Shown piece by piece: positions 13,763 through 30,354 of a DNA stretch of 64,000 nt (its first letter is position 1; every line of letters begins with the position of its first letter). Below the pieces are notes generated by a model, which saw only the letters and a list, made by a program, of their open reading frames with translations, ran no database searches and was not told the origin of the DNA. Made by a program: the position numbers and the translations under genes. Location of the stretch: positions 248,001-312,000 of the forward strand of contig NZ_JAMOIM010000001.1 of assembly GCF_026130545.1 (NCBI RefSeq), read 5' to 3'. The stretch comes from Lichenifustis flavocetrariae (lineage in GTDB: Bacteria; Pseudomonadota; Alphaproteobacteria; Rhizobiales; Beijerinckiaceae).

Positions 13763-13821
13763 CATTTCGACCGTTTCCTCCGCATGCAAGCTGCGCGGCA
13801 GTTCATGCACGGAGGACGATC

Positions 13822-14565: not shown

Positions 14566-14592
14566 TCGCAGTCCTGGTCTCTTATGCGATCC

Positions 14593-14618: not shown

Positions 14619-14668
14619 TCTCAAGATAAAAGCTTTGTTGCCGATTGCCTGAAGGACGTCGCTGGTTC

Positions 14669-15475
14669 CTACCCTTCGTCTCTAGCCTTGCGGCCGAGCA
14701 TGCCCCTCTGTGGGTCATAGCCCCAGGCGGCCAGAAGAAACGCCACGGCGCCTGCCACGATCGTGACCGCGAGCGCGAGCGGATTGAGCGTCCCGTAGGT
14801 GGAGAAGCGCAACAGTTCGACCACGTAGGCGAAGGGATTGATCCTGATGAGCCAGACAATCCAGGTCGCGCCGCTCTCCTGGACTTTCCAAGCCGGATAG
14901 AGAGCCGTCGAGAAGAAAAACGCGGGAAAGATCACGAAATTCATGGTCCCCGCGAAATTCTCCATCCGGCGCACGTAGACGGTGAGGAGAAGTCCGAGCG
15001 CCGCGAGTGTGAAACTGGAGAGGAACAGCGCCGGAAGCAGTGTCGCGGGCGCGAGCGGCGGGATGTCGACCTGAAACAGGAAGGCGATCAACAGGAACAC
15101 ATAGGCCTGGGTCACGCCGAGCAGCGCGCTCGCCAGAAGTTTGGCCAGCAGAACGAACCAGCGCGGTACCGGCGCCGTCAGCAAAAGCCGCAGCATGCCG
15201 GCCTCGCGGTCGAAGACCAGCGCCAGCGATGATTGCATCCCCTGGAACAACAGAACCATGCCGATCAGGCCGGGCAGCATGTAGACGTCGTAGGTGACAT
15301 AGGTCTCATAGGGGGGCGTGATGGACACGCCGAGGATGTTCTGGAACCCGGCGGAAAACACCACGAGCCAGAGCGTCGGTCGCACGATCGCCGAGACGAG
15401 CCGGCTTGTCTGGAAGCGAAATCGCAGGAACTCCCGCCAGATGATGGCCGACAGGGCCGAGAACCAGGGCGTCAC
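14669..15475 (-). CDS. ABC-2-type permease of the PQQ-alcohol-dehydrogenase-associated transporter
   Basis: Inner-membrane subunit, 268 residues with six hydrophobic segments and an ABC-2 core (GMQSSLALVFDREAGMLRLLLTAPVPRW, split here as GMQSSLALVFDRE and GMLRLLLTAPVPR). It is the type found next to PQQ-dependent alcohol dehydrogenases (the PedC-like permease). Related systems, Ped in Pseudomonas putida and Lut in Methylorubrum, have been linked to growth with rare-earth metals. Its start overlaps the stop of the upstream ATPase gene by 4 bases (ATGA), so the two are translationally coupled. The binding-protein and ankyrin genes lie further upstream on the same strand. Whether the transporter moves metal, a chelator or something else is not shown by the sequence; ABC-2 permeases are more often exporters. 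Confidence 0.87.
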   Translation of the reverse strand: MTPWFSALSAIIWREFLRFRFQTSRLVSAIVRPTLWLVVFSAGFQNILGVSITPPYETYVTYDVYMLPGLIGMVLLFQGMQSSLALVFDREAGMLRLLLTAPVPRWFVLLAKLLASALLGVTQAYVFLLIAFLFQVDIPPLAPATLLPALFLSSFTLAALGLLLTVYVRRMENFAGTMNFVIFPAFFFSTALYPAWKVQESGATWIVWLIRINPFAYVVELLRFSTYGTLNPLALAVTIVAGAVAFLLAAWGYDPQRGMLGRKARDEG

Positions 15476-16260
15476 GCGGCAGCGCCTTCCTGCCCGGTCC
15501 GTGCGACGGACAGAAAGGCGGCTTCGAGTGTGAGGCTGCCCGAGCGCGCCATCAGGTCGGAAGGCGATCCCTCCGCCACGATCCGACCGCGATGGAGGAC
15601 AATGACTTTCGAGGCCTCCTCGATCTCCTGCACGAGATGGGTCGCCCAGAGCACGGCGATGTCGCGTTCGCGGGCGAGTGTGAACAGATCCGCCACGAGC
15701 GCGCGGCGGCTGCCGGTGTCGAGCCCCGAACTTGGTTCGTCGAGCAACAGGATCTCGGGGGTGGTGAGCAGGGCGCGGGCGATCTCGATCTTGCGTCGCG
15801 TTCCGCCCGAGAGTTCGCGGACCTGGCGCGGCCCGAGGTCCCCCAGGCCGAGCTGGCCGAGACAGCTAGCGATGGCGTCTCGCGCCACGCTCCCGCGCAG
15901 GCCGTGCAGGCCGGCATAGAAAGCCAAATTGTGCATCACCGTGAGGTCGAGATCGAGCACCTGTTGCTGGAAGACCAGACCCATGGACGCCAAGGCTGCC
16001 GTCGGCCTTGCGGCGAAATCCTCGCCGAGAACCTGAACCGTGCCGCGATCGGCGACGAACAAGCCTGTGAGGATCTGGAACAGGGTCGTTTTTCCCGCCC
16101 CGTTAAGCCCCAGAAGAGCCGTGACCGAGCCGCGTTCCGCCGCGAAGGAGACATCGTCCAACGCCTTGATGCGTCCGTAGGACTTGCTGAGTCCCCTCAC
16201 ATCGAGGGCTGCCCCGGAACGTGTAATGGCAGGCTGGCTCACTGGACGGGTGTCTTGCAA
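15472..16260 (-). CDS. ABC transporter ATPase of the PQQ-associated system
   Basis: Cytoplasmic ATPase of 262 residues powering the permease encoded just downstream. Walker A GLNGAGKT (about residues 51-58), Q-loop VFQQQ, signature LSGGTRRK, Walker B ILLLDEPSSGLD and the switch His in WATHL are all present, so it should be active. Drug/NodI-type ABC ATPases coupled to ABC-2 permeases share this layout. Its start lies inside the end of the binding-protein gene (22-base overlap) and its stop overlaps the permease start, forming a tight three-gene unit. The first 17 residues are not conserved in ABC ATPases, so a start slightly downstream is possible. Confidence 0.9.
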   Translation of the reverse strand: MQDTRPVSQPAITRSGAALDVRGLSKSYGRIKALDDVSFAAERGSVTALLGLNGAGKTTLFQILTGLFVADRGTVQVLGEDFAARPTAALASMGLVFQQQVLDLDLTVMHNLAFYAGLHGLRGSVARDAIASCLGQLGLGDLGPRQVRELSGGTRRKIEIARALLTTPEILLLDEPSSGLDTGSRRALVADLFTLARERDIAVLWATHLVQEIEEASKVIVLHRGRIVAEGSPSDLMARSGSLTLEAAFLSVARTGQEGAAA

Positions 16261-17486
16261 GGGCTTTCACCCTCGTCGACCCCCAGCGTGTCGAGTGTCG
16301 TGCCAGGATGCAGGAAGCCCTCGAAGGGCGCATATTCGACCACCGCATCGCCCGATGTCAGCATGATGCTCTGCCGGAACTGGTGATCCCACCGCCGGTA
16401 GGATCCCTCGACTCCCTTGCTGACGTCGATCGCGACATCGGGGCCGACGAGAGCCGCGGCGATTTCGGCGCCTGTCTTGGCCTTGCCACGCGTGATCGCC
16501 TCGACGACGGAGCGCACCGCCACCCAGGCGGCCCAGTCGCCATCCGTCATCGGTCGATGCGCCGTGCGTTCGAAGCGGTGGTTGACCTGCGGCGCGCCAT
16601 AGCGTTCCGCGATCGCATCCCAGGCCGACGCCTGCAGCCCTTCGGTGCCCACGACCGGGCGCGGCCGGGACTGCTGGTAGGGCACGAAGCGCCCGAAATC
16701 GCGTGTCGTGTCGGCGAGGAAGAGGGCATCGTAGTCCCGTGACGAGGCGGTCATCAGCGCGACGTTGGTCTGATCGCGCTGGCGGGGATCGTTGCCGAAC
16801 ACGAAGGATTTGGTATCCGAGATCCTGGCGCCGAACTTCTTGGCGGATGCGGCGAAACTGTCGGCCAGCGTCTTATCCGCCGGCAAGGGCCCCACGAGGA
16901 CAAGCGTCTGTTTCCAGTTTTTCTTGACCAGGAATTGCGCCAGCGCGTCGGTGAGCATGGCGGTACTTGGCAGGACGTGGAAGACATTCGTCCCACAGAG
17001 TTCGGCGCGAAGATCCGTTTCGGGATGCCGGATGTTGAACACGGGCGGGCCGTTGGGGGGCAGCGCCTTGCCGATCGCTTCGAGGTCGGCGAGCGGAAGA
17101 TCCACGATCAGGGCGGCGGCATCGCCGTCCGCCGCCTGACGCGCAGCCGCCACCGCATCCGCGTCGGGAGCCAAAACATGCCGCTCCAGCTTGATCGTTG
17201 CACCGACGGCATGCGCGGTGGCGCGCGTGTCACGGATCGCAAGCTCGGCGCCCGCAAAAGGTTCGGGCGGAGGTGCCCGGTAGACCCCATCGTCCGATGC
17301 GACCTCCGCATAGGCGGCATCGCCCTCGCGTGAGAGATATTCGATGCGGATATCGCGTTGTGCGGCTCCGGATTGCTGGGCCGAGGCGGGTGATGGCGCG
17401 ATCCCGGCGAGGACGGCCGCCAAGACCATGCACCAGGACACCTTGACGCACACGAGGGGTCGGTCCGCACGCAGCATCGGCTTCAT
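16239..17486 (-). CDS. Periplasmic binding protein of the PQQ-associated ABC system
   Basis: Secreted protein of about 415 residues with a signal peptide (hydrophobic VSWCMVLAAVLAGIAPSPA, cleavage near ASAQ) and a type I periplasmic-binding-protein fold related to branched-chain amino acid binding proteins. It matches the group found beside PQQ alcohol dehydrogenases together with the ATPase and ABC-2 permease that follow here. The pairing is itself unusual, since ABC-2 permeases seldom use binding proteins. Two cysteines, one in AELCGTN and one near the C-terminus in ESPCKTP, might form a disulfide in the periplasm. ATG 17486 is preferred because the signal peptide follows at once; a longer frame runs to 17549. 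The ligand is unknown. Involvement in lanthanide handling is an inference from related clusters. Confidence 0.82.
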   Translation of the reverse strand: MKPMLRADRPLVCVKVSWCMVLAAVLAGIAPSPASAQQSGAAQRDIRIEYLSREGDAAYAEVASDDGVYRAPPPEPFAGAELAIRDTRATAHAVGATIKLERHVLAPDADAVAAARQAADGDAAALIVDLPLADLEAIGKALPPNGPPVFNIRHPETDLRAELCGTNVFHVLPSTAMLTDALAQFLVKKNWKQTLVLVGPLPADKTLADSFAASAKKFGARISDTKSFVFGNDPRQRDQTNVALMTASSRDYDALFLADTTRDFGRFVPYQQSRPRPVVGTEGLQASAWDAIAERYGAPQVNHRFERTAHRPMTDGDWAAWVAVRSVVEAITRGKAKTGAEIAAALVGPDVAIDVSKGVEGSYRRWDHQFRQSIMLTSGDAVVEYAPFEGFLHPGTTLDTLGVDEGESPCKTPVQ

Positions 17487-17571
17487 TATCGGCTCTTTCG
17501 GGTTGGACAGCTGGAACGGCGTCGAACACATCCACGTCGGCCGTAGCAAGGGGTGGCCCCGCGCGGTGGGA

Positions 17572-18516
17572 TCAGCGTGCAGCGAGCTTCGCCTTCAATT
17601 CCTCGCTCGGTGCGAGGTCGGCCGCCGTCTTGCCCGCTCCGTCGTGTGCATCCCGCGCGGCGCCACGCTGCAACAACAGATCGACGACCTCGTCATGTCC
17701 AAGTTCGGCGGCGATCATCAGCGGGGTTCGGCCCCGATCGTCTTTGGCGTCGATCGTCGCTCCTTTGTCGAGCAGCAGAGATACGAGCTTGACGCCGTCG
17801 TCGACCGGCACGTCGTTGGCGTAGCCTGCGGCCCACATCAGCAACGTCAACTTGTTGGCATAGACCGCATTGACCCCGACCCCTGTCGCCAGAAGGCGGG
17901 TCACCACCGGCACGAACCCGCGTGCGGCCGCATAGAGCACCGCGACCTTGCCGCTGGCATCCGGCGTTGCCGGATCGGCCCCGTGGTCAAGCAGGAGATT
18001 GACCATCGCGAGATCGCCGTTATAGGCGGCGGCAGAAAGTGGCGGAACGCCGGCCCGGCCCGGAAGGCTGACATTGGCACCATGCGCCACCAGCGCGCGG
18101 GCGGCCTTCAGACGGTCCTTCTCGGCGGCGGCATAGAGCGGCGTCGCGCCTTCCACGGTGCGTTCGTCGATGTCGGCACCATGGCCCAGGAGAAGCTCGA
18201 CCACCTTGTCATGGCCGGCGCGCGCCGCATGGGTCAGGGCTGTGCCGCCTGTCCGGTCCCGTGCAGCCGTCGAGGCGCCCGCGTCGAGCAACCGCGCCGT
18301 CAACGTGTCGCATCCATTCTCGGCGGCGGAGAACAGGGCGGCGCTGACCTGGGGCGCCTCCAGAGTCGCATGGCGGGCTTCATATTGCGCCGTAAGCGCG
18401 TCACACGTGCTGTCCGCCGCAACCGCAGCGCTGGCCAGTGGGCAGAGAAGCGCAACGGTCGCGATCCAGATGAGGCCTGAGCGTCTCAAACGGGCAATAG
18501 ATTTGGGCGTCAGCAT
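17572..18516 (-). CDS. Secreted ankyrin-repeat protein
   Basis: Protein of 314 residues with a signal peptide (ARLRRSGLIWIATVALLCPLASA... split after residue 31, ending AVAAD) and at least six ankyrin repeats. Typical units are GGTALTHAARAGHDKVVELLLGH and GRTPLMIAAELGHDEVVDLL, each read here only in part. Ankyrin repeats bind other proteins; location in the periplasm is predicted by the leader. It is the first gene of the set ankyrin, binding protein, ATPase, permease, all on this strand, with 85 bases to the next gene. ATG 18516 gives a normal-length leader but has no good ribosome-binding site. ATG 18597 has GGAAG upstream yet would lengthen the leader by 27 residues. Its partner is unknown; the context suggests the PQQ alcohol-oxidation system. 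Confidence 0.8.
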   Translation of the reverse strand: MLTPKSIARLRRSGLIWIATVALLCPLASAAVAADSTCDALTAQYEARHATLEAPQVSAALFSAAENGCDTLTARLLDAGASTAARDRTGGTALTHAARAGHDKVVELLLGHGADIDERTVEGATPLYAAAEKDRLKAARALVAHGANVSLPGRAGVPPLSAAAYNGDLAMVNLLLDHGADPATPDASGKVAVLYAAARGFVPVVTRLLATGVGVNAVYANKLTLLMWAAGYANDVPVDDGVKLVSLLLDKGATIDAKDDRGRTPLMIAAELGHDEVVDLLLQRGAARDAHDGAGKTAADLAPSEELKAKLAAR

Positions 18517-18670
18517 CGAGGCGGCGATACTGGACGCCGCTGGACCGCACGGGCGCGCCTTGCGTTCGACACACAACCCCATACCTGCCATGTTCATCGC
18601 TGTTCTTCCGCTCGGCACGCTCATGAACCGGCGATCTCCTTCGTGCAATGACGGCGACGATGGACCGAGC

Positions 18671-19624
18671 ATGCCGGTCCTGTCCAGTCTCGGGGCGTCC
18701 CCGCCCCGGGCATCGGGCCTTGGGGTTCTCTGCGGCATCGTGCTGATGCTCTGCGGAACGGGCTTTGGCGCGGCCCAGGATGTGTCGCAGCCGCCGGGCA
18801 TCCTCTACCCGGTCGCCGATACCACCATCCATGTGAATTGCATGGGCAGCGGCGCGCCTGCCGTGATGCTGGAAGCTGGGCTTGGGGGCAATTCTCTCGA
18901 TTGGACCTATGTTCAGGCCCGTGTCGCACCGACGCATCGGATCTGCGCCTATGATCGCGCAGGGGCCGGCTGGAGCGGCCGCACGGCACGTCCACGAAAC
19001 GCCGCGAATATGGCGGAGGAACTGCATCTGGCCGCGGTTGCGGCCAAAATTTCGACCCCCTTCATCCTCGTCGGTCACTCGTTCGGCGGTCTGCTCAGTC
19101 AAAACTATCTCGCGCGTTATCCGGGAGAAATCGCCGGCTTGGTTCTGGTCGATTCGATGCACCCGGATCAGTTCGCACGATTCACCGAAGCCGGGGTCGA
19201 CGTTCCGACGGATCCTCATGGCGTGCTGGGGCACACGCCGGCCGCCGCTGCGGCCTATGGGCTCCCGGAGCCGCTGCAGGCCGTGGCCATCTCCCTGGCG
19301 CGTTCCGGCAAGACGCGCGTTTTCGTGGTGCGTGAGATGAGCGCGATGCTGCAGATCGCCCATGACGTCGACGCCGAGCCGCGTCCGCTTCGGCCAATCC
19401 GGGTTCTCGTCCACGGCAATCGTGAATGGGACGTGCCCTATCCGGATGGACGCATGGAAGCGGCATGGCGGGCCATGCAGGCGGATCTTGCCAAGCGCTT
19501 CGGCGCCTCCACCCTCACGATTGTGGAGGGAAGCGGCCACGAAATACCCCTTGATCGACCGGCCGCGGTCGTCACGGCCATCGAGGATGTGGTTCGCGAA
19601 GTGGTTGCGGCCCGGCCTTTGTGA
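18671..19624 (+). CDS. Secreted alpha/beta hydrolase
   Basis: Alpha/beta-fold hydrolase of 317 residues with an N-terminal signal peptide (hydrophobic LGVLCGIVLMLCGTGFGAAQ). The nucleophile elbow GHSFGG, the oxyanion region EAGLGGNSLDW and the catalytic His in GSGHEIPLDRP are present; the acid is probably the Asp in REWDVPYPDG. It is divergent from the ankyrin gene and is followed on this strand by a small secreted protein and the beta-propeller gene, placing it in the PQQ-associated island. Esters or lactones made by periplasmic alcohol oxidation would be sensible substrates, but this is inference. ATG 18671 gives the best leader; ATG 18623 in frame is an alternative. Neither has a strong ribosome-binding site. 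Confidence 0.82.
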   Translation: MPVLSSLGASPPRASGLGVLCGIVLMLCGTGFGAAQDVSQPPGILYPVADTTIHVNCMGSGAPAVMLEAGLGGNSLDWTYVQARVAPTHRICAYDRAGAGWSGRTARPRNAANMAEELHLAAVAAKISTPFILVGHSFGGLLSQNYLARYPGEIAGLVLVDSMHPDQFARFTEAGVDVPTDPHGVLGHTPAAAAAYGLPEPLQAVAISLARSGKTRVFVVREMSAMLQIAHDVDAEPRPLRPIRVLVHGNREWDVPYPDGRMEAAWRAMQADLAKRFGASTLTIVEGSGHEIPLDRPAAVVTAIEDVVREVVAARPL

Positions 19625-19697
19625 AGGCTCGGCTTTAGGCCTTGTCCGGGATCGGCCGCCATGGTCCGGTAAGGACGTGGGATGTGGGACCGAATCG

Positions 19698-20045
19698 ATG
19701 AAGCGCGTAATTGAAGTCGGATGCTTGATTCTGTTGCTCCAGGGCGGGGCCTTGGCGGCGACCAAAAAGGGCATGCGGTTTTGGAACCTGACGGGAGAGA
19801 CCTTGTCCGAGGTGGCGCTCGCGCCGGCGGGCACCAAGAATTTCGGGGCCAATCAATGTGCGAACGACAAGGACGGCACGGTTGATTTCGATGAGGATGT
19901 GGCGGTCACGGGCGTGACGCCTGGCCGCTATGATGTCCGGATGAAGGATGTCTCGGGCCGCGTGTGCTACGCCAAGGCCGTCGAGGTGAAGGCCAACGCG
20001 ACCTTCTCGGTGCATCAGAAGGAGCTGGTCGACTGTGCGAAATGA
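19698..20045 (+). CDS. Small secreted protein of the PQQ-associated island
   Basis: Predicted secreted protein of 115 residues: a leader with a hydrophobic core (VIEVGCLILLLQGGALA) and a mature part of about 95 residues containing three cysteines. It begins with GMRFWNLTGETLSEVALAP, a pattern of small periplasmic domains, and ends HQKELVDCAK. I do not recognise a named family. Its last 11 bases overlap the GTG start of the beta-propeller gene, so the two are probably co-translated and work together. ATG 19698 is the only sensible start. Confidence 0.72.
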   Translation: MKRVIEVGCLILLLQGGALAATKKGMRFWNLTGETLSEVALAPAGTKNFGANQCANDKDGTVDFDEDVAVTGVTPGRYDVRMKDVSGRVCYAKAVEVKANATFSVHQKELVDCAK

Positions 20046-21045
20046 CCGGCCGGCGTTTCCTCTGGCCGTCGGATGGATCGTCCGGCTTGCCGCCACGGGC
20101 GTGTTGCTGCTTGGCGCCGTGAACGCTGCGGGCGCGAAGGACACGGGGTTGAAATTCGTGTCCAACGAGCGGTCGAGCGAGATCTTCATCCTCGACGCCA
20201 ATGATAATGCCGCCGGCTCCTTCAAGAGCTGCGGCCGTCCGCGAGGCATGAAGTTCACGCCGGATCACATGCGTTTCATCGTGGCCTGCGGCGGCGACAA
20301 CACGATCGCGATCTACGATGTCGGGTCGCACAAACTCGTCAAACGCTTCCGCGACGTGCCGGACCCGGAAGCTTTCGACCTGCACCCGAACGGCCATGAT
20401 CTCTACATCTCGAACGAGGACGATGCGGAGGCGACGGTCATCAATATCGAGACCGGCGAGGTGACAGGCCATTTTCCTGTCGGCGAAGAGCCCGAGGGTG
20501 TTCTGGCGACACCGGACGGCAAATATGTCTTCGTGGCCTCGGAGGCCGCGAACCTCGTGCAGGTGATCGATGTCGCGACCCAGAAGGTGGTGAAGGAGAT
20601 CCTCACCGCGACGAGGCCGCGCCGGCTGGCTCTGACGCCGGACGGCAAGACGGTGTGGGTCTCCGACGAGATCGCCGGGATCCTCGAGACAATCGACGTC
20701 GGCACCCTGGCGGTTACCGGGAGCGTCACCTTCGAGGTGCCCGGCCTGCAGAAAGACCAGATTACGCCGGTGGATATCGCGATCACGCGGGACGGCCGCA
20801 AAGCCTATGTGGCTCTGGGGCGCGCGGACCGTGTGGCCGTCGTGGATGTCGCGACCCGGAAGCCCATCGACTACATCCTCGTCGGCAAACGACCCTGGGG
20901 TCTCCGCCTCACCAAGGACGACAAAAAGCTCTATGTCGCCAACGGCTTGTCCGACGATGTTGCGATCATCGATACCGAGAAGGGCCGCCTCACCAAGGCT
21001 GTGCCGGTGGGTGTGATCCCCTACGCGATCCTCGTCGACGATTAG
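20035..21045 (+). CDS. YVTN-type beta-propeller protein of the PQQ-associated system
   Basis: Secreted beta-propeller of 336 residues. After a leader (hydrophobic VRLAATGVLLLGAVNAAGA) come seven repeated blades built on patterns such as TPDGKYVFVASE, TPDGKTVWVSDE and TKDDKKLYVANG, each about 42 residues. This is the propeller group known to accompany PQQ-dependent catabolism and its ABC transporter. It has no visible PQQ ligands or haem motif, so it is more likely a binding or scaffold protein than an enzyme. The GTG start at 20035 lies 10 bases after GGAG and overlaps the previous gene by 11 bases. Its position opposite the ABC genes suggests that the left arm of the island is expressed from divergent promoters near 18.6 kb. 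Confidence 0.87.
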   Translation: MRNDRPAFPLAVGWIVRLAATGVLLLGAVNAAGAKDTGLKFVSNERSSEIFILDANDNAAGSFKSCGRPRGMKFTPDHMRFIVACGGDNTIAIYDVGSHKLVKRFRDVPDPEAFDLHPNGHDLYISNEDDAEATVINIETGEVTGHFPVGEEPEGVLATPDGKYVFVASEAANLVQVIDVATQKVVKEILTATRPRRLALTPDGKTVWVSDEIAGILETIDVGTLAVTGSVTFEVPGLQKDQITPVDIAITRDGRKAYVALGRADRVAVVDVATRKPIDYILVGKRPWGLRLTKDDKKLYVANGLSDDVAIIDTEKGRLTKAVPVGVIPYAILVDD

Positions 21046-21118
21046 GAACTCCGGGCGTTCTCTGGGCTCGGATGAACCTGCAAGAGAACGATCCGGCAGA
21101 TCATTGATGAGATCGAAG

Positions 21119-21235
21119 CTGTATCCCTTCGCTCCGCTTGCGGGGAGAAGGTGCCGGCAGGCGGATGAGGGGGAAGCATTGGGGAAGACCCTCATCCGGC
21201 TTGTGGCCATCTTCTTCCCATAAGTTGGGGAAGGG
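21119..21235. repeat. Palindromic intergenic element, RIME-like
   Basis: The stretch contains CCGCTTGCGGGGAGAAGGTGC and, about 20 bases beyond, a second arm in inverted order. The pair CGGATGAGGG (21162-21171) and CCCTCATCCG (21189-21198) is a perfect inverted repeat. The composition, GGGGAGAAGGTGCC...GGATGAGGG, is that of the rhizobial intergenic mosaic elements. It lies between convergent genes and could fold into a large hairpin acting as a terminator. Confidence 0.7.
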
Positions 21236-21290
21236 ACTTTTCGGGATCGCAGGGATCAAAGGCCGAGGGTTCGTCTTGACGTCGTTGGCC

Positions 21291-22031
21291 TTAGCCGGCG
21301 GTCGCCTGAGCCTTCCTGACCTCAGCCAGGATCGCCTCGGTGTCCTCGATTGTTCGCCGCCCACGTGGCGCCGGCAGGGCGATGCGGGCCAGGATTCGCG
21401 CCGGTCTCTCGCTCAGGACGATCAGCGTATCGGCAAGGCCGATGGCTTCCACGACATCGTGCGTCACCATCAGAACTGTCGCGCCGCTCTGCCCGACCGT
21501 TTGCGCAAGGACTTCGCGCAACCGATCGGCGGAGGCTCCGTCCAGAGACACGAAGGGTTCGTCCAGCAGCAACAAACCGGGATCGATGGCGAGCGCTCGC
21601 GCGAGGCTGACCCGGCGCGCGAGCCCGAGCGAGAGTTCGGACGGATAGCGGGACAGGACTGACGTGAAGCCGAGCCGATCGGCGAGGTCGGCCGTGTTGT
21701 CCGGCATCGCGGCGGGCCGTGCGAGAGCGATGTTCTCCGCCACGTTTCGCCAGGGCAACAGGCGTGGCTCCTGAAAGACCACGCCCAAGCGGAGAGCCTC
21801 AGGGTTCCGGACCTTGCCCACGAAGCTCTGGTCGAGACCGGCCGCGATCCGCAGAAGCGTGGTCTTGCCGCATCCCGACGGCCCGATGAGCGCGACGAAG
21901 CCACTTTTTGGCAGCGAAAGGATGAAGTCCTGGAGAACGACGACCCGGGTCGCATCGGCCGCGACATGCGCCTTGCGGGTGACGGTGATTTCAAACGCGT
22001 CGGGGACGCCAGCGTGCGGCGCGCCGTTCAA
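21291..22031 (-). CDS. ABC importer ATPase (NitT/TauT-like) in pqq operon
   Basis: ATPase of 246 residues for the importer encoded with it. Walker A GPSGCGKTT, Q-loop VVFQEPRLLPW (typical of nitrate/sulfonate/taurine importers), Walker B LLLLDEPFVSLD and switch His in VTHD are intact. The signature is LSLGLARR, where most ABC proteins have LSGGQ; the Gly at position 4 of the motif is kept. The start lies 41 bases inside the end of the permease gene, so it is the last gene of a unit running pqqA, pqqB, binding protein, permease, ATPase. The substrate is unknown; family substrates include sulfonates, nitrate, pyrimidines and aromatic acids. Confidence 0.88.
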   Translation of the reverse strand: MNGAPHAGVPDAFEITVTRKAHVAADATRVVVLQDFILSLPKSGFVALIGPSGCGKTTLLRIAAGLDQSFVGKVRNPEALRLGVVFQEPRLLPWRNVAENIALARPAAMPDNTADLADRLGFTSVLSRYPSELSLGLARRVSLARALAIDPGLLLLDEPFVSLDGASADRLREVLAQTVGQSGATVLMVTHDVVEAIGLADTLIVLSERPARILARIALPAPRGRRTIEDTEAILAEVRKAQATAG

Positions 22032-22728: not shown

Positions 22729-22731
22729 CCA

Positions 22732-23748
22732 TCACTCCACGGCCGACGACAAGCGGTAGTAGAGGGCCGGGTCGAATTTGGTTCCGGATCCGACCAACTT
22801 GCCGGACGCCGTTGCGGCCAGGATCGAAAAGAGCCGTTCGGCATCCGCCGCTTCCTCACGGATCGGTCGGTGTGGAATGCCAGCACGCGTCGTGTCACGG
22901 TAGGCCTTGAAGAGGGCCTCGTCATCGGCATGCATCAGTGGCCGCAACGCGTCCCACTCCGCGTCCGACTCGGCCAGGATCGCGTTGGCTGATTGGGTCG
23001 CCCTCAGAAACGCCTCGAGCGTGGGCTTGTGAGCCTTCGCGAAATCCTCGGAAAACACGTAGCCCGTGAAGGCAACCGGGGACGCGACGCCCAGGTCCCG
23101 TTCCGCCTGGGCGACATCGAGAACGCGATGGAAGCCTTGAACATCGAGTTGGGCACAATAGTTCCAGAATTCGAGGCTGGCATCAGCCTCCCCGGTCCGC
23201 GTCTTTTCATAGATGAGCGGCGGTGCTCCGAACATCAGCGTCGCCTCGTGGCTGAGGTCGAGGCCCGACTTGAGAGCTGCCGCCTGGACGATGAGCCAGC
23301 TCTTGTCGAGCGGGCCGCCCGCGACCGCGAGACGTTTGCCCCGAAGATCGCGCAAAGTGGAGATCCCCCCGTCGCCACGGGCCATGACGGCGCCGGCCGC
23401 GGTCGAGTAGGGGTAGAAGAGGAGCTTGGCGCCGAGCGACCTTTCCCGGACGACCCAAAGCCAGTCCGTGACCGCGAGATCGACCGAGCCGGCGTTGAGG
23501 GCGAGTTTGGCCGCGTCGGGTGAGGCGAGGGACACGGTTTCGAGGTCGAGGCCAGCCTTGGCGTCGAGCCCATGCCGCCGCATCGTGTCGATCTGCCAGG
23601 CGACCGTTCCCGTCGACAGGAGACCGATCCGGATGTGTTCGGCCGCCATGGCGGCTGACATGCAGGACAAGCCCGCCAGGATGACGGAGAGCTGGACCAT
23701 CGCGCATAAGCGAAGCGCGGATCGCGTGGTCAAGCTCACAAGCCTCAC
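22732..23748 (-). CDS. ABC importer binding protein (SsuA/NMT1-like) overlapping pqqB
   Basis: Periplasmic solute-binding protein of 338 residues with a signal peptide (LCAMVQLSVILAGLSCMSA, cleavage near AMAAEH) and the SsuA/NMT1-type fold. The IGLLSTGTVAWQIDTMRRHGL strand, shown here in part, and the GSVDLAVTDWLWV and DLRGKRLAVAGGPLDKSWL segments correspond to family blocks. Its GTG start overlaps the pqqB stop codon as GTGA, giving translational coupling to a PQQ gene. Members of this type are sometimes seen in PQQ clusters, but the substrate is not established. A role in taking up a compound tied to PQQ-dependent oxidation is inference. Confidence 0.85.
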   Translation of the reverse strand: MRLVSLTTRSALRLCAMVQLSVILAGLSCMSAAMAAEHIRIGLLSTGTVAWQIDTMRRHGLDAKAGLDLETVSLASPDAAKLALNAGSVDLAVTDWLWVVRERSLGAKLLFYPYSTAAGAVMARGDGGISTLRDLRGKRLAVAGGPLDKSWLIVQAAALKSGLDLSHEATLMFGAPPLIYEKTRTGEADASLEFWNYCAQLDVQGFHRVLDVAQAERDLGVASPVAFTGYVFSEDFAKAHKPTLEAFLRATQSANAILAESDAEWDALRPLMHADDEALFKAYRDTTRAGIPHRPIREEAADAERLFSILAATASGKLVGSGTKFDPALYYRLSSAVE

Positions 23749-24641
23749 AGGCTGACCGTCATGCCGTCGAAAGCGATCTCCCAGCCGCTGGCCTCTACGG
23801 TTCTGCGCTGGGGCGAATCTTCGATCAGCACGGGATTGGTGTTGTTCAGGTGGATGAAAACCTTCCGCGCGACATTGATGTGCGCCAGAGCGTTGAGCGA
23901 TCCGCTTTCTCCGATCATTGCCATATGGCCCATCCTGGCAGCGGTCTTCGATGAGAGGCCCAGCGCAGGCAATTCATCATCCGTGAAAGTGGTGCCATCG
24001 AAGAAAAGCAGATCCGCGCCAGCGAGCCGCGCGCGAAGAGCGTCCGTCACATGGGCGCACCCGGGGATGTAGACGAATCGGCGTCCGTTCGAGGTGATAT
24101 CGAGACCGACCGTCATTTCCGTTTCCGAGCCGATGCCCTCGCCCTCGGACTGAAAAAACAACGGTCGCTTTCCCGGCACCGCGAAAGCGACAATGTGCAG
24201 CCCCCCACTCGCGAACGGGTGATCGAGCCGAAAAGGGATTCTGCGAACGAAGCTTGGATTGAGAACGCGGAACACCGGATCGGCGTCCAAAGTCTCTAAA
24301 ACCTCAGCCGATGCGTGCAACGCGAAGGAGTGGTTCTCCCGAAGCGCCAGGAGGCCTGCCACATGGTCGAGATCGGCATTGCTCAAAATCACGGATTCGA
24401 TCGGCGAGGACCGGCCTTCGCGCTGTGGATGCAGCTGCGGGGCCGCAAGGATCTGCGCGCGCAGATCAGGCGAAGCATTCAACAAGACCCAGGAAGCACC
24501 GTCGACGCTGACGGCCACGGTTGATTGTGTCCGTGGTCGCACCCGTGGACTGCCTTCCCAGGCAAGGCTGCAGACAGGGCAACGGCAATTCCACTGCGGA
24601 AAGCCGCCCCCCGCCGCCGATCCGAGCACCAGAACGTGCAT
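23745..24641 (-). CDS. pqqB: PqqB, PQQ biosynthesis protein
   Basis: Metallo-beta-lactamase-fold protein of 298 residues acting in pyrroloquinoline quinone biosynthesis, probably as an oxygenase that hydroxylates the Tyr of the processed PqqA peptide. The family start VLVLGSAAGGGFPQWNCRC, with its Cys-x-Cys-x-x-Cys cluster, and the SNADLDHVAGLL metal-site segment are present. The later GCAHV and HLNNTNPVL blocks are also seen. ATG 24641 is preferred; a TTG two codons upstream keeps the frame. It follows pqqA after 29 bases. pqqC, pqqD and pqqE, usually next, are replaced here by an ABC importer, so they must be elsewhere if PQQ is made. Confidence 0.95.
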   Translation of the reverse strand: MHVLVLGSAAGGGFPQWNCRCPVCSLAWEGSPRVRPRTQSTVAVSVDGASWVLLNASPDLRAQILAAPQLHPQREGRSSPIESVILSNADLDHVAGLLALRENHSFALHASAEVLETLDADPVFRVLNPSFVRRIPFRLDHPFASGGLHIVAFAVPGKRPLFFQSEGEGIGSETEMTVGLDITSNGRRFVYIPGCAHVTDALRARLAGADLLFFDGTTFTDDELPALGLSSKTAARMGHMAMIGESGSLNALAHINVARKVFIHLNNTNPVLIEDSPQRRTVEASGWEIAFDGMTVSL

Positions 24642-24670
24642 CCTCAAACGCGGATCGAGCCGCTCGACCC

Positions 24671-24763
24671 TCAGATCTCGATGTCGGCCGACTCGTAGCT
24701 CGTCACTTCCATGCCGATGCAGACTTCTTCGACCACCGGGGTCGTCCAGATCAACTGCTGCAT
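24671..24763 (-). CDS. pqqA: PqqA, PQQ precursor peptide
   Basis: A 30-residue peptide that supplies the Glu and Tyr which are cross-linked to form PQQ. It reads MQQLIWTTPVVEEVCIGMEV then TSYESADIEI. The invariant Glu19 and Tyr23, spaced E-V-T-S-Y, match the cross-linked pair of known PqqA peptides. A GGGAGAA ribosome-binding site (24773-24779) lies 9 bases before ATG 24763. The short stem-loop at 24787-24802 sits just upstream in the leader. The gene is the first of the set pqqA, pqqB and the ABC importer. Confidence 0.96.
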   Translation of the reverse strand: MQQLIWTTPVVEEVCIGMEVTSYESADIEI

Positions 24764-24786
24764 TACAAAGTTCTCCCTAAGCATCC

Positions 24787-24802
24787 AGCGATCTTCATCG
24801 CT
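24787..24802 (-). promoter_or_regulatory. Leader hairpin before pqqA
   Basis: AGCGAT and ATCGCT form a perfect 6-bp stem around a 4-base loop, 8 bases upstream of the pqqA ribosome-binding site. It could affect mRNA stability or translation of pqqA. Further upstream, a TTGACG at about 24837-24842 (reverse strand) might be a -35 box, but the matching -10 is weak. Confidence 0.3.
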
Positions 24803-24923
24803 TTGACAGGTCGATGGTGCTGCAATTCCGCTGTAGCGTCAATCCGACGTGTAATCCTCTGAGAGCTTTCTCGGCGATCCACAAAGGTGCATTGGCTGAT
24901 CCCGGTCGCTGCTTCTGCAAAGG

Positions 24924-27251
24924 TCACGCGGCCATCTTTCGCACGCGCCCCGAGGGGGCTGCGGCATCCACTTCAAAGCGACCGACGAGCTGCGCGAGGG
25001 CCTCGGTGTCCCGTGCCAAATTATGGCTGGAGGCTGTCGTTTCCTCCACCATGGTGGCGTTCTGCTGTGTCACGGTCTCGATGTTGGTCACCGCCAAATT
25101 CACTTGGTCGAGGCCCGCGGCCTGCTCATTCGCGAGGGCTGCGATATCGGTGACGATGTCGTTGATTTCGACCACCTGACCGAGGATCCGCTTCAAAGCC
25201 ACGCCGGACTCGCCCACGAGGTGCACGCCCTTGTCCACCTGCTGCGTCGCCGCGATCACAAGGTCCTTGATCTCCCGCGCGGCTTCCGCGGATCGTTGAG
25301 CCAGGGCCCTGACTTCCGAGGCGACGACCGCGAACCCGCGTCCGGAATCGCCGGCTCGCGCGGCCTCGACGCCGGCGTTGAGGGCCAGCAGGTTGGTCTG
25401 GAATGCGATCTCGTTGATGACGCTGATGATCTGCCCGATCTGGCTCGATGATTTCTCGACGTCGGTCATGGCCTCTATGGTCTGGCGCATCACGTCGCTC
25501 GAATGTTCGGCGTCCGTCTTGGCCGTGCCGACGATGTCGCGTGCGTGGATCGCACCTTCTGCCGATTTGCGCACCCGCGCGGTGATCTCGTTCAGGGTCG
25601 CGGCGGTTTCCTCGACGCTTGCCGCTTGCTGCTCGGTGCGTCTGGAAAGGTCGTCGGCGGCCGTCGAGATTTCATCGGTCCCCGACTGCAATTCCTGTGT
25701 CCCGACGATGATCTGCTTCATGACATCTCGAAGCTCGGTCACGGCGGCATTGAAGTCGCTGCGCAATCCTTCGTATTCAACCGAGAACGGAGTGCTGAGC
25801 CGGTAGGTCAGGTCGCCCTTGGCGAGATGCGCGAGACCTTTTGCCAGGCTGTCGACAACCGCGGCTTGGCGGGCGGCAGCCTCGGCCCGGTCCGCGTCGG
25901 CTTTCTGTCGAATGGTTTCTTGTTCCTTTCCGAGGCGGGCTGCCTCGGCCGCCAACTCATCGCCCCGGAGCATATTGCTCTTGAAGACCTGGACGGCGCC
26001 CGCCATTTTCGTGATCTCGTCGTGCCCCTCGTTTTTCACCTGCGCATTGCGATCCCCCTGCGCCAGACGCTCCATACTGGAGGCCAGGGCGCTGAGTCGC
26101 CGAATGACCACCCGGCCGACATAGAGCCAGCCGATCGCAACCGAGATGAGAAGCGCCACGCCGCTCAGAACCACGCTGATCGTCAGGCTTTGGTCCGTGA
26201 CACCCTTCGAATGAGCCACTGCGCCGGCGACGGCCTCCTGCTGTCCGCTCACAAGCTTTTCAACCTCGACGCCGAGTTCGGCGGCGGCAGCCGTCATGGT
26301 CTGGAGAAGTGCGACCGTGTTGGCGTCGAGCTTCTCTTGCTCGGCCCGCAGCGCGAAGACGCTGTCCTGGCCTGTTCCCGCAAGGAACAGCCTTTCGCTC
26401 AGTGCGTTCAGCTTGGCTCGGTCAGGGCCGTCGCCGTAGACGCCGATGATCCTGTCATAGGCCTTCAGCGCATCCATCAACCGGCTGTGAGCCGTCGTAT
26501 AACGTTGCTGGACGTCCGCCGCGGCATCGCTCTTGACGCTGCTGGCGGCGGACAGCATGCCGATCGTCAGGTTGCCGTCGGCCTGAACTTCCATGAGCGC
26601 GCGGAGCGCCGGGATCGCGACGTCTCCGAGCCGGCGTTGGATCGTATCGACGGCCGAGGGTGAATTGGTCCGCTTCAGCCCGACAAGAAGGACATTGGCC
26701 GTGTTTTGCGCCGTATCGACGAGTGGTTGCAGGAAATTCGTGAAATCCTGGTAGGCCGTCAAGGCGCTGGCGACTTTCTCGTCAAGCTTGGCCGCCAGAG
26801 CGATCCGTGACTCGGCCACGCCTCGCAAGTTGTTCATTTTCTCGGCGAGCGCCGTATTCTTGGCGTCAATCTTCGCGAGGACCTCGGGTGAATCGGTCAT
26901 CCCCCGCAGAACGGCCAAGCGTTTGTTCTGTTCAGCTAGGAGGCCTGACAAGCGATTTGCCTGATCGCTCAACGCGGCAGTGTCCTTCCGGGTCGCCAGC
27001 GCGGGAGCCTCGGCGGCGAGGACCGACGATCGTTGCGCGAAGGTCAAGGACTCCGTAACCGTGGGAATCGTCCGCGAGCCGAGTTCACTGACGATATCAC
27101 CTCCCTTGGAGGTCAGCCAGACAGACGACAGACCCGAAAGGATCGTCAAGCTGGCCACACAAGTAAAAGCCGCGATTAACCTTGCGCCGATCCCGAACCG
27201 CACGGTTGGTATGTTTGGTGTTGAAGGATGAGCCGACGCCAACAAAGTCAT
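24924..27251 (-). CDS. Methyl-accepting chemotaxis protein beside the PQQ genes
   Basis: Chemoreceptor of 775 residues. Membrane helix at about 20-45, a long periplasmic region (about 46-352) that looks entirely helical and rich in Ala/Lys/Glu, as in four-helix or double helical-bundle sensors, second helix at about 355-378, HAMP (about 380-435) and further HAMP-like region, then the signalling hairpin with tip AFQTNLLALNAGVEAARAG and the glutamine/glutamate-rich methylation helices. The C-terminus ends RVRKMAA with no CheR pentapeptide. ATG 27251 is used; GTG 27266, with AGAGG before it, is an alternative. It lies between pqqA and the cytochrome/alcohol dehydrogenase genes on the same strand. 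That position suggests taxis related to PQQ-dependent oxidation, though no operon link is shown. Confidence 0.92.
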   Translation of the reverse strand: MTLLASAHPSTPNIPTVRFGIGARLIAAFTCVASLTILSGLSSVWLTSKGGDIVSELGSRTIPTVTESLTFAQRSSVLAAEAPALATRKDTAALSDQANRLSGLLAEQNKRLAVLRGMTDSPEVLAKIDAKNTALAEKMNNLRGVAESRIALAAKLDEKVASALTAYQDFTNFLQPLVDTAQNTANVLLVGLKRTNSPSAVDTIQRRLGDVAIPALRALMEVQADGNLTIGMLSAASSVKSDAAADVQQRYTTAHSRLMDALKAYDRIIGVYGDGPDRAKLNALSERLFLAGTGQDSVFALRAEQEKLDANTVALLQTMTAAAAELGVEVEKLVSGQQEAVAGAVAHSKGVTDQSLTISVVLSGVALLISVAIGWLYVGRVVIRRLSALASSMERLAQGDRNAQVKNEGHDEITKMAGAVQVFKSNMLRGDELAAEAARLGKEQETIRQKADADRAEAAARQAAVVDSLAKGLAHLAKGDLTYRLSTPFSVEYEGLRSDFNAAVTELRDVMKQIIVGTQELQSGTDEISTAADDLSRRTEQQAASVEETAATLNEITARVRKSAEGAIHARDIVGTAKTDAEHSSDVMRQTIEAMTDVEKSSSQIGQIISVINEIAFQTNLLALNAGVEAARAGDSGRGFAVVASEVRALAQRSAEAAREIKDLVIAATQQVDKGVHLVGESGVALKRILGQVVEINDIVTDIAALANEQAAGLDQVNLAVTNIETVTQQNATMVEETTASSHNLARDTEALAQLVGRFEVDAAAPSGRVRKMAA

Positions 27252-27331
27252 TCGAGGAACCCTCACGTGTTCCTCTGTTGTGACACCGAACATTTAATGG
27301 CCGGTTCCATCCGGTCCGGCCGATCGGTTGC

Positions 27332-27931
27332 TTAGTAGCTTCCGGCCAGCCCTGCCAGATACGTCGACACCTTGACGAGATCGTCCTCAGGCGTGGCCTT
27401 CATCAGACTCGTCATGCCGGGATTGTTGCCGCGCACACCGTTCCGGAACTCGGCGGTGGTCTTCACAAGGTAGTCGTGGCTCTGGCCGGCCAATCGTGGA
27501 ACCGTGCTATTGCCTTGAAAACGCTCAAGATGACAGCTCGTGCATTGCACGGATGAATTGACCGTCTTGGCAATCCGGGTCACCTCGTCGGAGGCAGCCG
27601 GCTGATCCAGGACGGGCCAAGTCTTTTGTGCGAAATACGCCGCCAGAGCCTTCATATCGTCTTTCTCCAACGTGGAGGCGATCTGGCTCATGACTTCGTT
27701 CTGGCGCGCGCCCTTTTTGAAATCTCGTAATTGAAGGTAAAGATAACCTTCTGTCTGCCCCCAGATGATCGGGATATTCTTTGCCGTCGGCACGCCGTTA
27801 GCGCCGTGACAGGAGGCGCAGACCCCGGCTTTCTCTTCGATCGTATCGGCTTTCACGGGCCCACCGGCATCTTTTAGCCCAAGGAGCGCCAAAACGCCCA
27901 GAGCCACGGCTTGCAGCCTCGACACCCTCAT
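27332..27931 (-). CDS. Dihaem cytochrome c (c4-like)
   Basis: Periplasmic c-type cytochrome of 199 residues with a leader (hydrophobic residues 8-19, ending VKAD) and two haem-binding motifs: CASCH at 38-42 and CTSCH at 130-134. Each sits in its own cytochrome c domain, and later methionines (one near 81 in NEVMSQ, one near 173 in NPGMTSL) are placed to be axial ligands. The two-domain layout and spacing are those of cytochromes c4/c553-like. It is encoded 77 bases downstream of the PQQ alcohol dehydrogenase, so it probably takes electrons from it, directly or through another carrier. ATG 27931 is used; the TTG at 27940 has a better-spaced GGA and is possible. Confidence 0.92.
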   Translation of the reverse strand: MRVSRLQAVALGVLALLGLKDAGGPVKADTIEEKAGVCASCHGANGVPTAKNIPIIWGQTEGYLYLQLRDFKKGARQNEVMSQIASTLEKDDMKALAAYFAQKTWPVLDQPAASDEVTRIAKTVNSSVQCTSCHLERFQGNSTVPRLAGQSHDYLVKTTAEFRNGVRGNNPGMTSLMKATPEDDLVKVSTYLAGLAGSY

Positions 27932-27960
27932 GATCGTCAATTTCGTATCCGCCGTTGTAA

Positions 27961-27993
27961 AAGGGGCGGAGTCGTCGAACGACCCCGCCCCTT
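27961..27993 (-). terminator. Strong hairpin between alcohol dehydrogenase and cytochrome c genes
   Basis: On the reverse strand AAGGGGCGGGGTCG and CGACTCCGCCCCTT form a 14-bp stem with one G-T pair around TTCGA, followed by two further T residues (CCCCTTTTAC). It starts 16 bases after the dehydrogenase stop. It looks like an intrinsic terminator or attenuator that would make the cytochrome gene less expressed than the dehydrogenase. Confidence 0.7.
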
Positions 27994-28008
27994 ATTGTGC
28001 TCTAGGCC

Positions 28009-29718
28009 TTAATTGATGGTGAAGGCCATGATCGCATTGCCGCGCTTGTAGTCGAGCTGTGTGTTCCCGCCGGCACCGACCACGATATATTGCTGACCGT
28101 CGACCGAATATGACGACGGTGGAGCATTGACGCCGGCGCCAGCCTGGAACTGCCAGAGTAGTGATCCATTCTCCGACGAATAGGCCTTGAACAGGCCATT
28201 GCCTTCCCCGGTGAACACGAGCCCGCCCGCCGTGGCCAGGATGCCGCCGATCATCGGCTGAGCCGTTTTGACCTGCCAACGGATCTTGCCGGTGTTGTAA
28301 TCGACGGCCGTGACGTTGCCCCATTGTTCCTCGGTCGGGATCACCTTGAAGGCGCCGCCCAGCCATAATTTGCCTGACGGATAGGCCGAGCTCTCCACCG
28401 AATAGGTCATCGGCTGGTGCAAATTGATCGCATAGGCAAGGCCCTGCTTCGGATCGGTGGCGATCGGGGACCATTCGACCCCCCCGTTCGCGCCAGGCAG
28501 CATGCGGGCGCCTTCCTTGGTCGGCAGAGCCCACATATTCTCTTGCGGCACCATGGCTTCGGAGAAGCGGATCAGGCTGCAGTCCTTGGCGTCGTGAACA
28601 TAGAGGTGGCCGGTCTTGCCAGCGTGCAGAATGCCTTTGACCGGCTTGCCGTCCTTGTCTGCCACCTGCGTGATCACGGGCGGGGAGACCGCGTCGAGAT
28701 CCCAGACGTCGTGCGAGATATATTGCTGGTGGCAGATGTATTTCCCCGTATCGAGATCAACGGAGACCAGCGAGTCGGTGTAGAGATTGTCGCCGGGGCG
28801 TGACGCACCATCGAGATCCGGAGAGGGATTGCCAACAACGAAGTAGATTCGATTGGTTTCGAGATCCACGGCCGGGTTCTGCCACACGCCGCCGCCAAGG
28901 GTCTTGTAGGGGTCGCCGAGCTTGGCCAAAGCGGCCTTCTCGGCCGCAATGTCGCGGTGCATGTCGCGTCCGGTCAAATCTTTCTCTGCCCAGACGCCGA
29001 CCGAGTTCTCCGGAACTGTGTTGAAGGTCCACACCAGGTTGCCGGTCTTCGCATCAAAGGCCTTCACGAAGCCCCGGATACCGTATTCGCCACCGTTGGT
29101 CCCGATCAGAACTTTGCCCTTGGCAACCGTGGGCGCCATGGTCTCGCTGTAGCCTTCCTCGGGGTCGGCGACCTCCTTGTCCCACACGGTCTTGCCTGTG
29201 TGGGCGTCGAGCGCGACCAGATGAGCGTCGAGCGTCGCGACATAAACGAGGTTGTCGGCGACTGCCACGCCCCGGTTGTTCGGGCCGCAACAGAATGTCG
29301 TGATCGGCCCCATCTTGTGCGCGTAATGCCAGATCTCTTCGCCGGTGCGCGCATTCAAGGCATAAACGTGACTGAACGATGTGGTCACGTACATGATGCC
29401 GTTCACGATGATCGGCGACGTTTCGAGTGATTCCTTCACCTCGGTTTGAAAGATCCACGCGGGCCGCAGCTTCGCGACATTGGTCGTATTGATCTGACTG
29501 TTGGGGTAGAAACGGGATTGTCCGTAATCCCCGTTGGTGTGCAAGAAGTTCGAGCTGTCGCTCGACGCATGCGTCAGCAGGTCCTGGGTGACGGACGACA
29601 AGTCTCCGAATTTCGTGGCTGACTTGATTTCTTCAGAATATCCCGGGCCTGACAGCGCCATGGCGAAGGCGGCCGCCAGCATGGTCGTACTCAGATGATA
29701 TCTTCGCGGATCCGCCAT
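28009..29718 (-). CDS. PQQ-dependent alcohol dehydrogenase, type I, with Asp-x-Asp motif
   Basis: Periplasmic quinoprotein of 569 residues: leader (hydrophobic 11-24, cleavage near GYSEE) and an eight-bladed PQQ propeller, with no cytochrome domain. Key residues are visible: the vicinal disulfide pair Cys143-Cys144 (TFCCGPNN), metal ligands Glu211 (GGEYG) and Asn297 (VVGNPSP), and catalytic Asp340. Asp342 follows two residues later (HDVWDLDAV). In methanol/ethanol dehydrogenases this extra Asp marks lanthanide-using enzymes such as XoxF, whereas calcium enzymes have Ala, Ser or Thr. The caution is that glucose dehydrogenases also show a D-x-D-like stretch. The start at 29718 has GGGAGG upstream. 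The neighbouring cytochrome c is the likely electron acceptor. Primary alcohols are the expected substrates, but the exact one is unknown. Confidence 0.92.
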
Positions 29719-30354
29719 CTGTGGTCCCTCCCAAAAAGCGCCACGTTCTCGAATTGCGGCGTTAACATGGGAGGATGAACAGTGCCCCTATATTGGTCAA
29801 GCGAATTAGGGAGATGGCGGGATAGGAGCCGGCCGTTGGGTGACGATGAGGGTGCTCCAGAGCCGAATGCGGAGGTTCACTGTCGTTCGCGCGTAAGGTT
29901 GGTAGGCCCGTCGACTTGATCGCTACCCTCGGTCGCACTGCGCATCTGCTCTTGCCAAGCGATGCTGCTGCGGTCTCGGCGTCTCCCGCTGGCTTCGATG
30001 TCGACTCGGATCGAACCAGCTGCGGCCGATAAGTCAAAATCAAGAATTTCTCAAGCATAAATCAGAGAACCCTGGCTTGAAGGTTCCGGAGGAGCCGAGC
30101 CGTCTCGTTTCTTGAGGAAAACGAAAAGTCTTGGCCGGTACTGTGCCTCCAACATGAGGTAGGGCGTCCGCGATGCGAAAGGCGGGGTTGACCGGAGGCA
30201 AGAGGCGGCTTCGCTGTGCGGGTGGGCACCGGCCTGACCGAGCCGCAGGGGCGCATGCCGCGTCAACAATGTGCCGGTGGCCCGCGGAAGCAGCGCCGAC
30301 CGGGAAAGATCGAATCATCTGGCCGGGTGACCCACGGACAGGCTGGCCCAACGC
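29719..30354. other. Non-coding region upstream of alcohol dehydrogenase and cheW
   Basis: This 636-base region separates divergent genes. Short open frames occur on both strands, but none has a convincing start or family similarity. It should hold the promoter of the dehydrogenase. A TTGACC at about 29795-29800 on the reverse strand is the only -35-like box noticed, without a good -10. Confidence 0.4.

Follow-up and report, generated by a model that had tools for sequence, protein, structure and literature searches.

A separate D-x-D branch of PQQ alcohol dehydrogenases with cytochrome and ankyrin partners in Lichenifustis flavocetrariae

The dehydrogenase and its cytochrome and ankyrin partners

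We analyzed a stretch of 64,000 nucleotides (hereafter, the window) from contig NZ_JAMOIM010000001.1 of Lichenifustis flavocetrariae, a relative of lichen-dwelling Lichenibacterium with a genome of 7.5 Mb in 180 contigs (completeness 99.7%). Positions 14669-29718 hold an island of genes for a pyrroloquinoline quinone (PQQ) alcohol dehydrogenase, a diheme cytochrome c, an ankyrin-repeat protein, two ATP-binding cassette (ABC) systems, a beta-propeller, PqqA and PqqB, and a secreted protein of 115 residues. Protein families were assigned from Pfam and NCBIfam profiles, using the curated NCBIfam cut-offs. A sequence-only reading had named the genes of this island, and profile searches and the reading of open reading frames (ORFs) recovered every one of them in place.

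The dehydrogenase (28009-29718, minus strand) scored 471.1 bits against TIGR03075, narrowly below the cut-off of 480.05, and was the sole match when its own genome was searched with PF01011 and TIGR03075. Its closest solved structures are 6zcv and 6zcw, whose sequences are nearly identical to each other; 6ZCW is described as PedH (PMC11996626). The D-x-D motif that the sequence-only reading had picked out is genuine, D340-x-D342 aligning with the D-F-D of PedH, and E211 and N297 complete a lanthanide-type site, i.e., Glu, Asn, Asp, and the extra Asp. These four ligands and the vicinal cysteines (C143-C144) were invariant in 21 aligned rows of the branch, window included, and recurred in 8 further class-level members at 65-76% identity, giving an identical ligand set in 29 branch sequences (the window plus 28 relatives). 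At the position of the second Asp, four reference enzymes (ExaA, MxaF, and two quinohaemoproteins), which we take to be calcium enzymes, carry Ser, Thr, Thr, and Ala.

A tree was built from 38 rows. The 18 that make up the dehydrogenase branch were supported at 100/100 and stood outside XoxF, MxaF, PedH/ExaA, and the quinohaemoproteins. Since the enzyme does not group with PedH, it is not of the ExaF/PedH type (type 2b), and neither does it belong to the XoxF clade; its identity is 34% to PedH, 30-31% to XoxF, and 38% to the quinohaemoproteins. Keltjens' uncharacterised types of alcohol dehydrogenase could include this branch.

To follow its distribution, we used samples of 149 genomes of the family, 297 of the order, and 385 at class level, scoring the best dehydrogenase candidates per genome (at most 4 in the order and at most 3 in the class). 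The branch was held by 17 of the 149 family genomes. Within the order it is 70-85% identical to the window copy, with 13 of 297 genomes (the own genome included) at 70% or more, after which identity drops to 47%. Outside the order, 8 of the 385 class-level genomes carried the dehydrogenase at 65-76%; besides the own genome, two more (L205 and L206) stood at 51%. The latter keep all ligands, the vicinal cysteines too, in genomes of only 0.8-0.9 Mb that are 68-71% complete. Two sister rows in the tree (L183 and L184, ORFs from about 9325 and about 9579) are 44% identical to the dehydrogenase and have Arg for the metal-ligand Glu and Gly for the catalytic Asp, so that, judged by these residues, they are quinoproteins without a normal metal site; neither an ankyrin nor a cytochrome match was found in their flanks.

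We then examined neighbors in 12 order loci and 8 class loci (at least 65% identity), picked by the dehydrogenase alone. The gene for the secreted diheme cytochrome c (27332-27940, minus strand, two CxxCH motifs) adjoins that of the dehydrogenase in 11 of the 12 order loci, the twelfth (L181) ending at a contig edge, and was found in 7 of the 8 class loci, L204 being cut inside the dehydrogenase. The ankyrin-repeat protein (17572-18516, minus strand; Pfam Ank_2, 5e-55) has a signal-like N terminus and 314 residues, counted from the chosen ATG. In the order, its gene follows tail to tail in 10/10 loci that reach far enough; in the class it is present in 6/6 such loci, in 5 of them tail to tail. 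The same pairing was seen across genomes, with presence set at E<=1e-40 and the best candidates per genome scored (at most 15 in the family and at most 7 in the order). Thus, the ankyrin protein occurred in 14 of the 149 family genomes, all 14 among the 17 with the dehydrogenase (p = 4e-17), and in 11 of the 297 order genomes, all among the 13 with the dehydrogenase (p = 2e-18); all co-occurrence p values given here ignore kinship. In the window the partner set is complete but its order is changed, the ankyrin gene lying about 9 kb from the cytochrome gene; between them are the genes for the propeller, the PqqT-type system, PqqA and PqqB, and a methyl-accepting chemotaxis protein (MCP). Gene identities, ligands, co-occurrence, and gene order are direct observations here, and the association of the genes is far beyond chance, i.e., the module is real.

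The own genome encodes no PedF-like (24.6 vs. 122 bits) or XoxJ-like (21.7 vs. 212 bits) protein over the cut-off, which makes the diheme cytochrome the obvious candidate for electron acceptor. Among titles and the opening lines of abstracts in the open literature, we met no system joining an ankyrin protein with PQQ and lanthanide, methanol dehydrogenase, or a quinoprotein; the papers compared for novelty also included PMC12997753, PMC13088180, and PMC12628762, as far as their accessible text goes. Nor did we come across a description of the ankyrin protein, the two-haem cytochrome, and the often accompanying small secreted protein as partners in a system of this kind. The suggestion that the ankyrin and 115-residue genes are components of the system is supported, both being linked to it by co-occurrence and locus context.

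Two ABC systems, the 115-residue protein, and neighboring genes

The sequence-only reading had described a single ABC system. Genes of the Ped/Lut type are indeed present, but two transporters had been merged, since 21291-23748 is a separate PqqT-type system. The Ped/Lut-type system comprises an ABC-2 permease (PedC/LutF-like; 14669-15475, minus strand; PF01061) with 332.1 bits to TIGR03861 (cut-off 241.35), an ATPase (PedB/LutE-like; 15472-16260, minus strand) with 295.5 bits to TIGR03864 (cut-off 302.25), and a binding protein (PedA1/LutA-like; 16239-17549, minus strand) with 384.5 to TIGR03863 (cut-off 413.6). The PQQ-associated beta-propeller (PedA2-like; 20035-21045, plus strand) reached 300.6 bits to TIGR03866, above the cut-off of 287.3. 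We call the system Ped/Lut-type, rather than equivalent, because its binding protein and ATPase match these families best yet fall below the cut-offs. The binding protein, the single TIGR03863 protein of its genome, belongs to a divergent, lower-scoring subgroup.

In each of the 17 dehydrogenase-bearing family genomes, TIGR03863 found a Lut-type binding protein with a strong score (E<1e-90), compared with 69/149 overall (p = 6e-7). PedA1 and/or PedA2 lay in the dehydrogenase flank in 8/12 order loci and 5/8 class loci; the binding proteins beside branch dehydrogenases are 47-48% identical in L171 and L181 and 34-37% in L177-L180. In Pseudomonas putida, PedA1A2BC is reported to be required for PedH-dependent growth at low lanthanum (La) and to have no role in carbon uptake (PMC6839425). 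For Methylorubrum extorquens, lutE and lutF mutants are reported not to grow on methanol with La in an mxaF background, while lutA and lutB mutants grew slowly (PMC7391723).

The second system consists of an ATPase (21291-22031; PF00005), a permease (21991-22728; PF00528; closest NCBIfam SsuC at 90 bits, far below 347), and a binding protein (22732-23748), all on the minus strand. By family it is SsuABC-like, and the binding protein matches 9b1u with E 1.4e-61, and 9b1u, 9b1v, and 9ooz all at about 1e-61. 9B1V is described as PqqT with PQQ and Gd (PMC12828617), and PqqT is reported to bind PQQ with a dissociation constant of 50 nM and to help prevent PQQ loss (PMC12124388). The window protein aligns with PqqT over 298 residues and keeps the Lys of LDKxW, which by its numbering would be K142 of the literature; a homologue in L041 has Ala in its place. 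This importer most likely serves PQQ recapture. Its genes lie near the dehydrogenase in only 2/12 order and 2/8 class loci.

Upstream of it lie an intact pqqB (23745-24647, minus strand, 300 aa; TIGR02108 395.6 bits, cut-off 245), which overlaps the binding protein gene by 4 bases, and a pqqA of 30 residues (24671-24763, minus strand), recognized by eye. The window PqqA keeps the Glu and Tyr from which PQQ is made. As pqqA, pqqB, and the three PqqT-type genes are all on the same strand and either overlap or lie less than 30 bases apart, they are likely to form one operon. The main pqq set, on contig 114, has a pqqA match and pqqC, pqqD, and pqqE over their cut-offs, but its pqqB (L044:11557-12374) is decayed, with matches in three frames and several stops, so the intact island copy is probably the working one. 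This decay would account for the isolated pqqA and pqqB of the island, provided that it is not an assembly fault, which several lesions make unlikely.

Beside the main pqq set lies a gene for a secreted sugar-dehydrogenase-like protein (L044:7591-8931; in NCBIfam a weak domain match only), followed by a small CxxCH ORF (8819-9328). This protein is possibly a second PQQ enzyme; the idea that PQQ is made for the dehydrogenase alone was dropped on its account, and we limit our claim to one PF01011-type enzyme rather than one PQQ enzyme.

The 115-residue secreted protein (19698-20045, plus strand) had no family match in Pfam or NCBIfam at E<=0.01. It carries a conserved acidic loop, N-D-x-D-G-x-V-D-x-D-E, which in the window copy has five carboxylates within ten residues, and in an alignment of 11 members D57, D59, D65, E66, C90, and C113 were among the invariant columns. 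Its AlphaFold2 model is confident and beta-rich, with blocks from residue 31 onward at 97-98, and suggests a beta-sandwich; Foldseek gave no Protein Data Bank match at E<=0.001, the best being 2mca (0.0096) and transthyretin-like 5aq0 (0.03). An EF-hand or lanmodulin type of loop was rejected on the beta-sandwich model and on finding no Pfam EF-hand at E<=10; by eye, the protein has one EF-like acidic loop only. Identity with LutB, LutC, or LutD was likewise rejected, there being no match at E<=0.01 in the Methylobacterium-like lut locus L129, where the propeller occupies the place of LutB and is followed by two ORFs, one cupredoxin-like and one short. The genome of this locus (G049) does have a match to the 115-residue protein on another contig.

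A scan of GTDB genomes yielded 130 relatives, of which 80 were kept, the closest named matches being Lichenibacterium ramalinae and L. minor (Hyphomicrobiales, Lichenihabitantaceae). Of the 80 loci, 73 had at least one gene of four kinds within 10 kb on either side (PQQ dehydrogenase 62, Ped/Lut 60, PqqT-type 55, pqqB 5); three of the seven others are contigs no longer than about 5 kb, and one of these three has a weak dehydrogenase piece. Every one of the 88 dehydrogenase ORFs that include the motif, from 62/80 loci, showed E-N-D-D (another 9 do not extend to it), a set made up mostly of Bradyrhizobium near copies. In the Bradyrhizobium loci, the 115-residue gene comes after PqqT-type genes, Ped-type genes lie upstream, and D-x-D dehydrogenases follow downstream. 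The downstream enzyme in L070 (record name Frankia sp. RB7, same order) is XoxF, with 1078 bits to 6oc5. In a further Hyphomicrobiales metagenome-assembled genome, a gene of this family is immediately followed by a tandem run of three D-x-D dehydrogenases (L052:10686-16648).

In the family sample, where the best candidates per genome (at most 30) were scored, the 115-residue protein was found in 38/149 genomes at E<1e-10 (39 at E<=0.001). A strong Lut-type binding protein accompanied it in 35 of these 38, compared with 34 of the 111 others; G037, G102, and G139 have the small protein without it. It was found in 15 of the 17 dehydrogenase-bearing genomes and not in G066 or G131. This distribution suggests a protein of lanthanide/PQQ loci in general, not of the dehydrogenase branch alone. 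In Acidobacteria, XoxF3 is reported to be accompanied by small hypothetical proteins (about 110-130 aa; PMC10875860). A paper on Bradyrhizobium XoxF lists homologues of lutA, B, E, F, and G, and a word search of its main text gave no 'hypothetical', 'ABC transporter', or 'PqqT'.

Among the other genes, a secreted alpha/beta hydrolase (about 18671-19624, plus strand; PF00561) is a facultative member. It is present in L035, L037, L039, L050, L051, L053, L054, L055, and L057 (L051, L054, and L055 being the same contigs as L039, L037, and L035), whereas the Lichenibacterium loci L040, L042, L048, and L049 showed none. An MCP gene lies inside the island (24924-27293, minus strand); together with 11847-13670, 30355-30867, and L045:3070-4290 it belongs to a set of MCPs (one by family scan, the rest by sequence) and CheW, which perhaps serves alcohol taxis. 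A gene for an extracytoplasmic function (ECF) sigma factor is followed by one for an NrsF-type anti-sigma protein (PF06532) at 32055-33301, and a secreted protein at about 13820-14565, with no family match, ends in what we take to be a VPLPA-type sorting motif.

Proposed working and rival explanations

We consider it reasonably probable that the island encodes a periplasmic PQQ module for alcohol (or aldehyde) oxidation on a separate D-x-D branch, most likely one that holds a lanthanide. Alcohol would be oxidized in the periplasm by the PQQ-lanthanide dehydrogenase, whose electrons would reach the oxidase by way of the diheme cytochrome c encoded beside it. The ankyrin protein may serve this dehydrogenase-cytochrome pair as a dedicated periplasmic partner, either a scaffold or a factor for maturation or protection. 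Lanthanide supply or sensing could fall to the Ped/Lut-type ABC system and its propeller, and PQQ recapture to the PqqT-type system, apparently in the pqqA-pqqB operon. The 115-residue protein may be an accessory of lanthanide/PQQ loci that acts in the periplasm and perhaps binds a metal or cofactor. Here we infer the metal, the substrate, the electron path, and the roles of the ankyrin and 115-residue proteins. The lanthanide-linked system proposed by the sequence-only reading is still the best reading, with dependence on the metal presumed and the D-x-D motif found in membrane glucose dehydrogenase (m-GDH) as well. A bolder version strikes us as rather unlikely: a new class of lanthanide alcohol dehydrogenase, an ankyrin protein that assembles or protects the enzyme-cytochrome pair, and a 115-residue loop that binds or delivers lanthanide or lanthanide-PQQ, as a non-EF-hand counterpart of lanmodulin in many Hyphomicrobiales.

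Several observations weigh against a lanthanide module. In the tree, the branch does not arise from within the enzymes whose lanthanide use is proven; support at the deepest forks is weak (74/54), and the program flagged long branches that meet at its base. Since m-GDH has D-x-D too, the motif alone is insufficient for lanthanide use; the authors who report m-GDH complexed with Ca, Mg, Zn, and Sr regard its D-x-D as a sign of facultative lanthanide use (PMC11996626). In four of the 12 order loci (L172, L175, L176, and L182) the flank showed neither a Ped/Lut binding protein nor a propeller, three dehydrogenase-bearing genomes of one genus (G043, G106, and G129) had no ankyrin match at 1e-40, and no ankyrin or cytochrome match lay alongside the L205 and L206 dehydrogenases. 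In L180 (G355), which counts among the ten order loci with a tail-to-tail ankyrin gene, the dehydrogenase and ankyrin genes are both in pieces. Lastly, ABC-2 permeases are typical of exporters, an odd fit with import.

The main doubt about the module concerns the metal of its dehydrogenase, for which lanthanide use is likely. We hold it unlikely that a real module has a dehydrogenase using calcium (or several metals), with the second Asp inherited and the transporter serving another purpose, e.g., a substrate-derived compound or regulation. The range of metals reported for m-GDH (PMC11996626) speaks for this, as do the binding protein's place in a subgroup below the TIGR03863 cut-off and that of the dehydrogenase outside XoxF and PedH; yet the Lut-type binding protein accompanies the dehydrogenase in 17/17 family genomes, forms of that protein both closer and more distant are found next to the branch, and the P. 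putida transporter is reported not to act in carbon uptake (PMC6839425). It is quite possible, and to us doubtful rather than improbable, that the core is only the dehydrogenase, cytochrome, and ankyrin protein, the 115-residue protein and the PqqT-type importer being general PQQ-locus genes and the rest a loose clustering around the same cofactor. The 115-residue gene does keep company with PqqT-type genes and other D-x-D dehydrogenases, including XoxF, in Bradyrhizobium-type loci, it was not found in two dehydrogenase-bearing genomes, and PqqT-type genes are seldom near the dehydrogenase. Such clustering is nonetheless compatible with our view of the dehydrogenase itself, and the 115-residue gene stays tied to genomes with the Lut-type protein.

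That the Ped/Lut-type system is an exporter, e.g., of PQQ made in the cytoplasm, seems very improbable. The ABC-2 type of its permease would suit this, and we know of no identified PQQ exporter, but a substrate-binding protein belongs to the system. Moreover, PedE-dependent growth of P. putida is reported without pedA1A2BC (PMC6839425), so PQQ still reaches the periplasm, and a Ped-type PQQ exporter was rejected on these data.

If, as we favor, the module holds a lanthanide, it bears on a small group, as the confirmed lanthanide enzymes are reported to be few, of the XoxF and ExaF/PedH types (PMC11996626). A conserved separate branch with a fixed partner set offers a defined target for widening that list, and its close pairing with an ankyrin protein gives such a protein a testable role in a quinoprotein system. 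The 115-residue family is a candidate for the handling of lanthanide or PQQ in the periplasm, e.g., in Bradyrhizobium.

Comparison with known systems

The ped cluster of P. putida likewise combines a D-x-D PQQ alcohol dehydrogenase with a four-part ABC system that includes a propeller. However, the window dehydrogenase lies on another branch (34% identity to PedH), a diheme cytochrome stands where P. putida has the c550 PedF, an ankyrin protein and a PqqT-type importer are added, and no PedG-like protein over the cut-off was found in the own genome. With the lut cluster of M. extorquens the window shares LutA-, LutE-, and LutF-like proteins and the propeller; it differs in that no TonB receptor or lanmodulin was found among the 20 ORFs scanned (13582-33301) and in its 115-residue protein, unmatched in the Methylobacterium-like locus. 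The window protein is a strong match to PqqT of M. extorquens, but here it apparently shares an operon with pqqA-pqqB. XoxF methanol dehydrogenase systems have the ligands and the PQQ family in common with the window dehydrogenase, which belongs to another branch (30-31% identity) and has no XoxJ-like protein over the cut-off. AnkB of Pseudomonas aeruginosa is a periplasmic ankyrin protein needed for the catalase KatB. Likened by description, it too pairs a secreted ankyrin protein with a redox enzyme; here, the partner is a quinoprotein.

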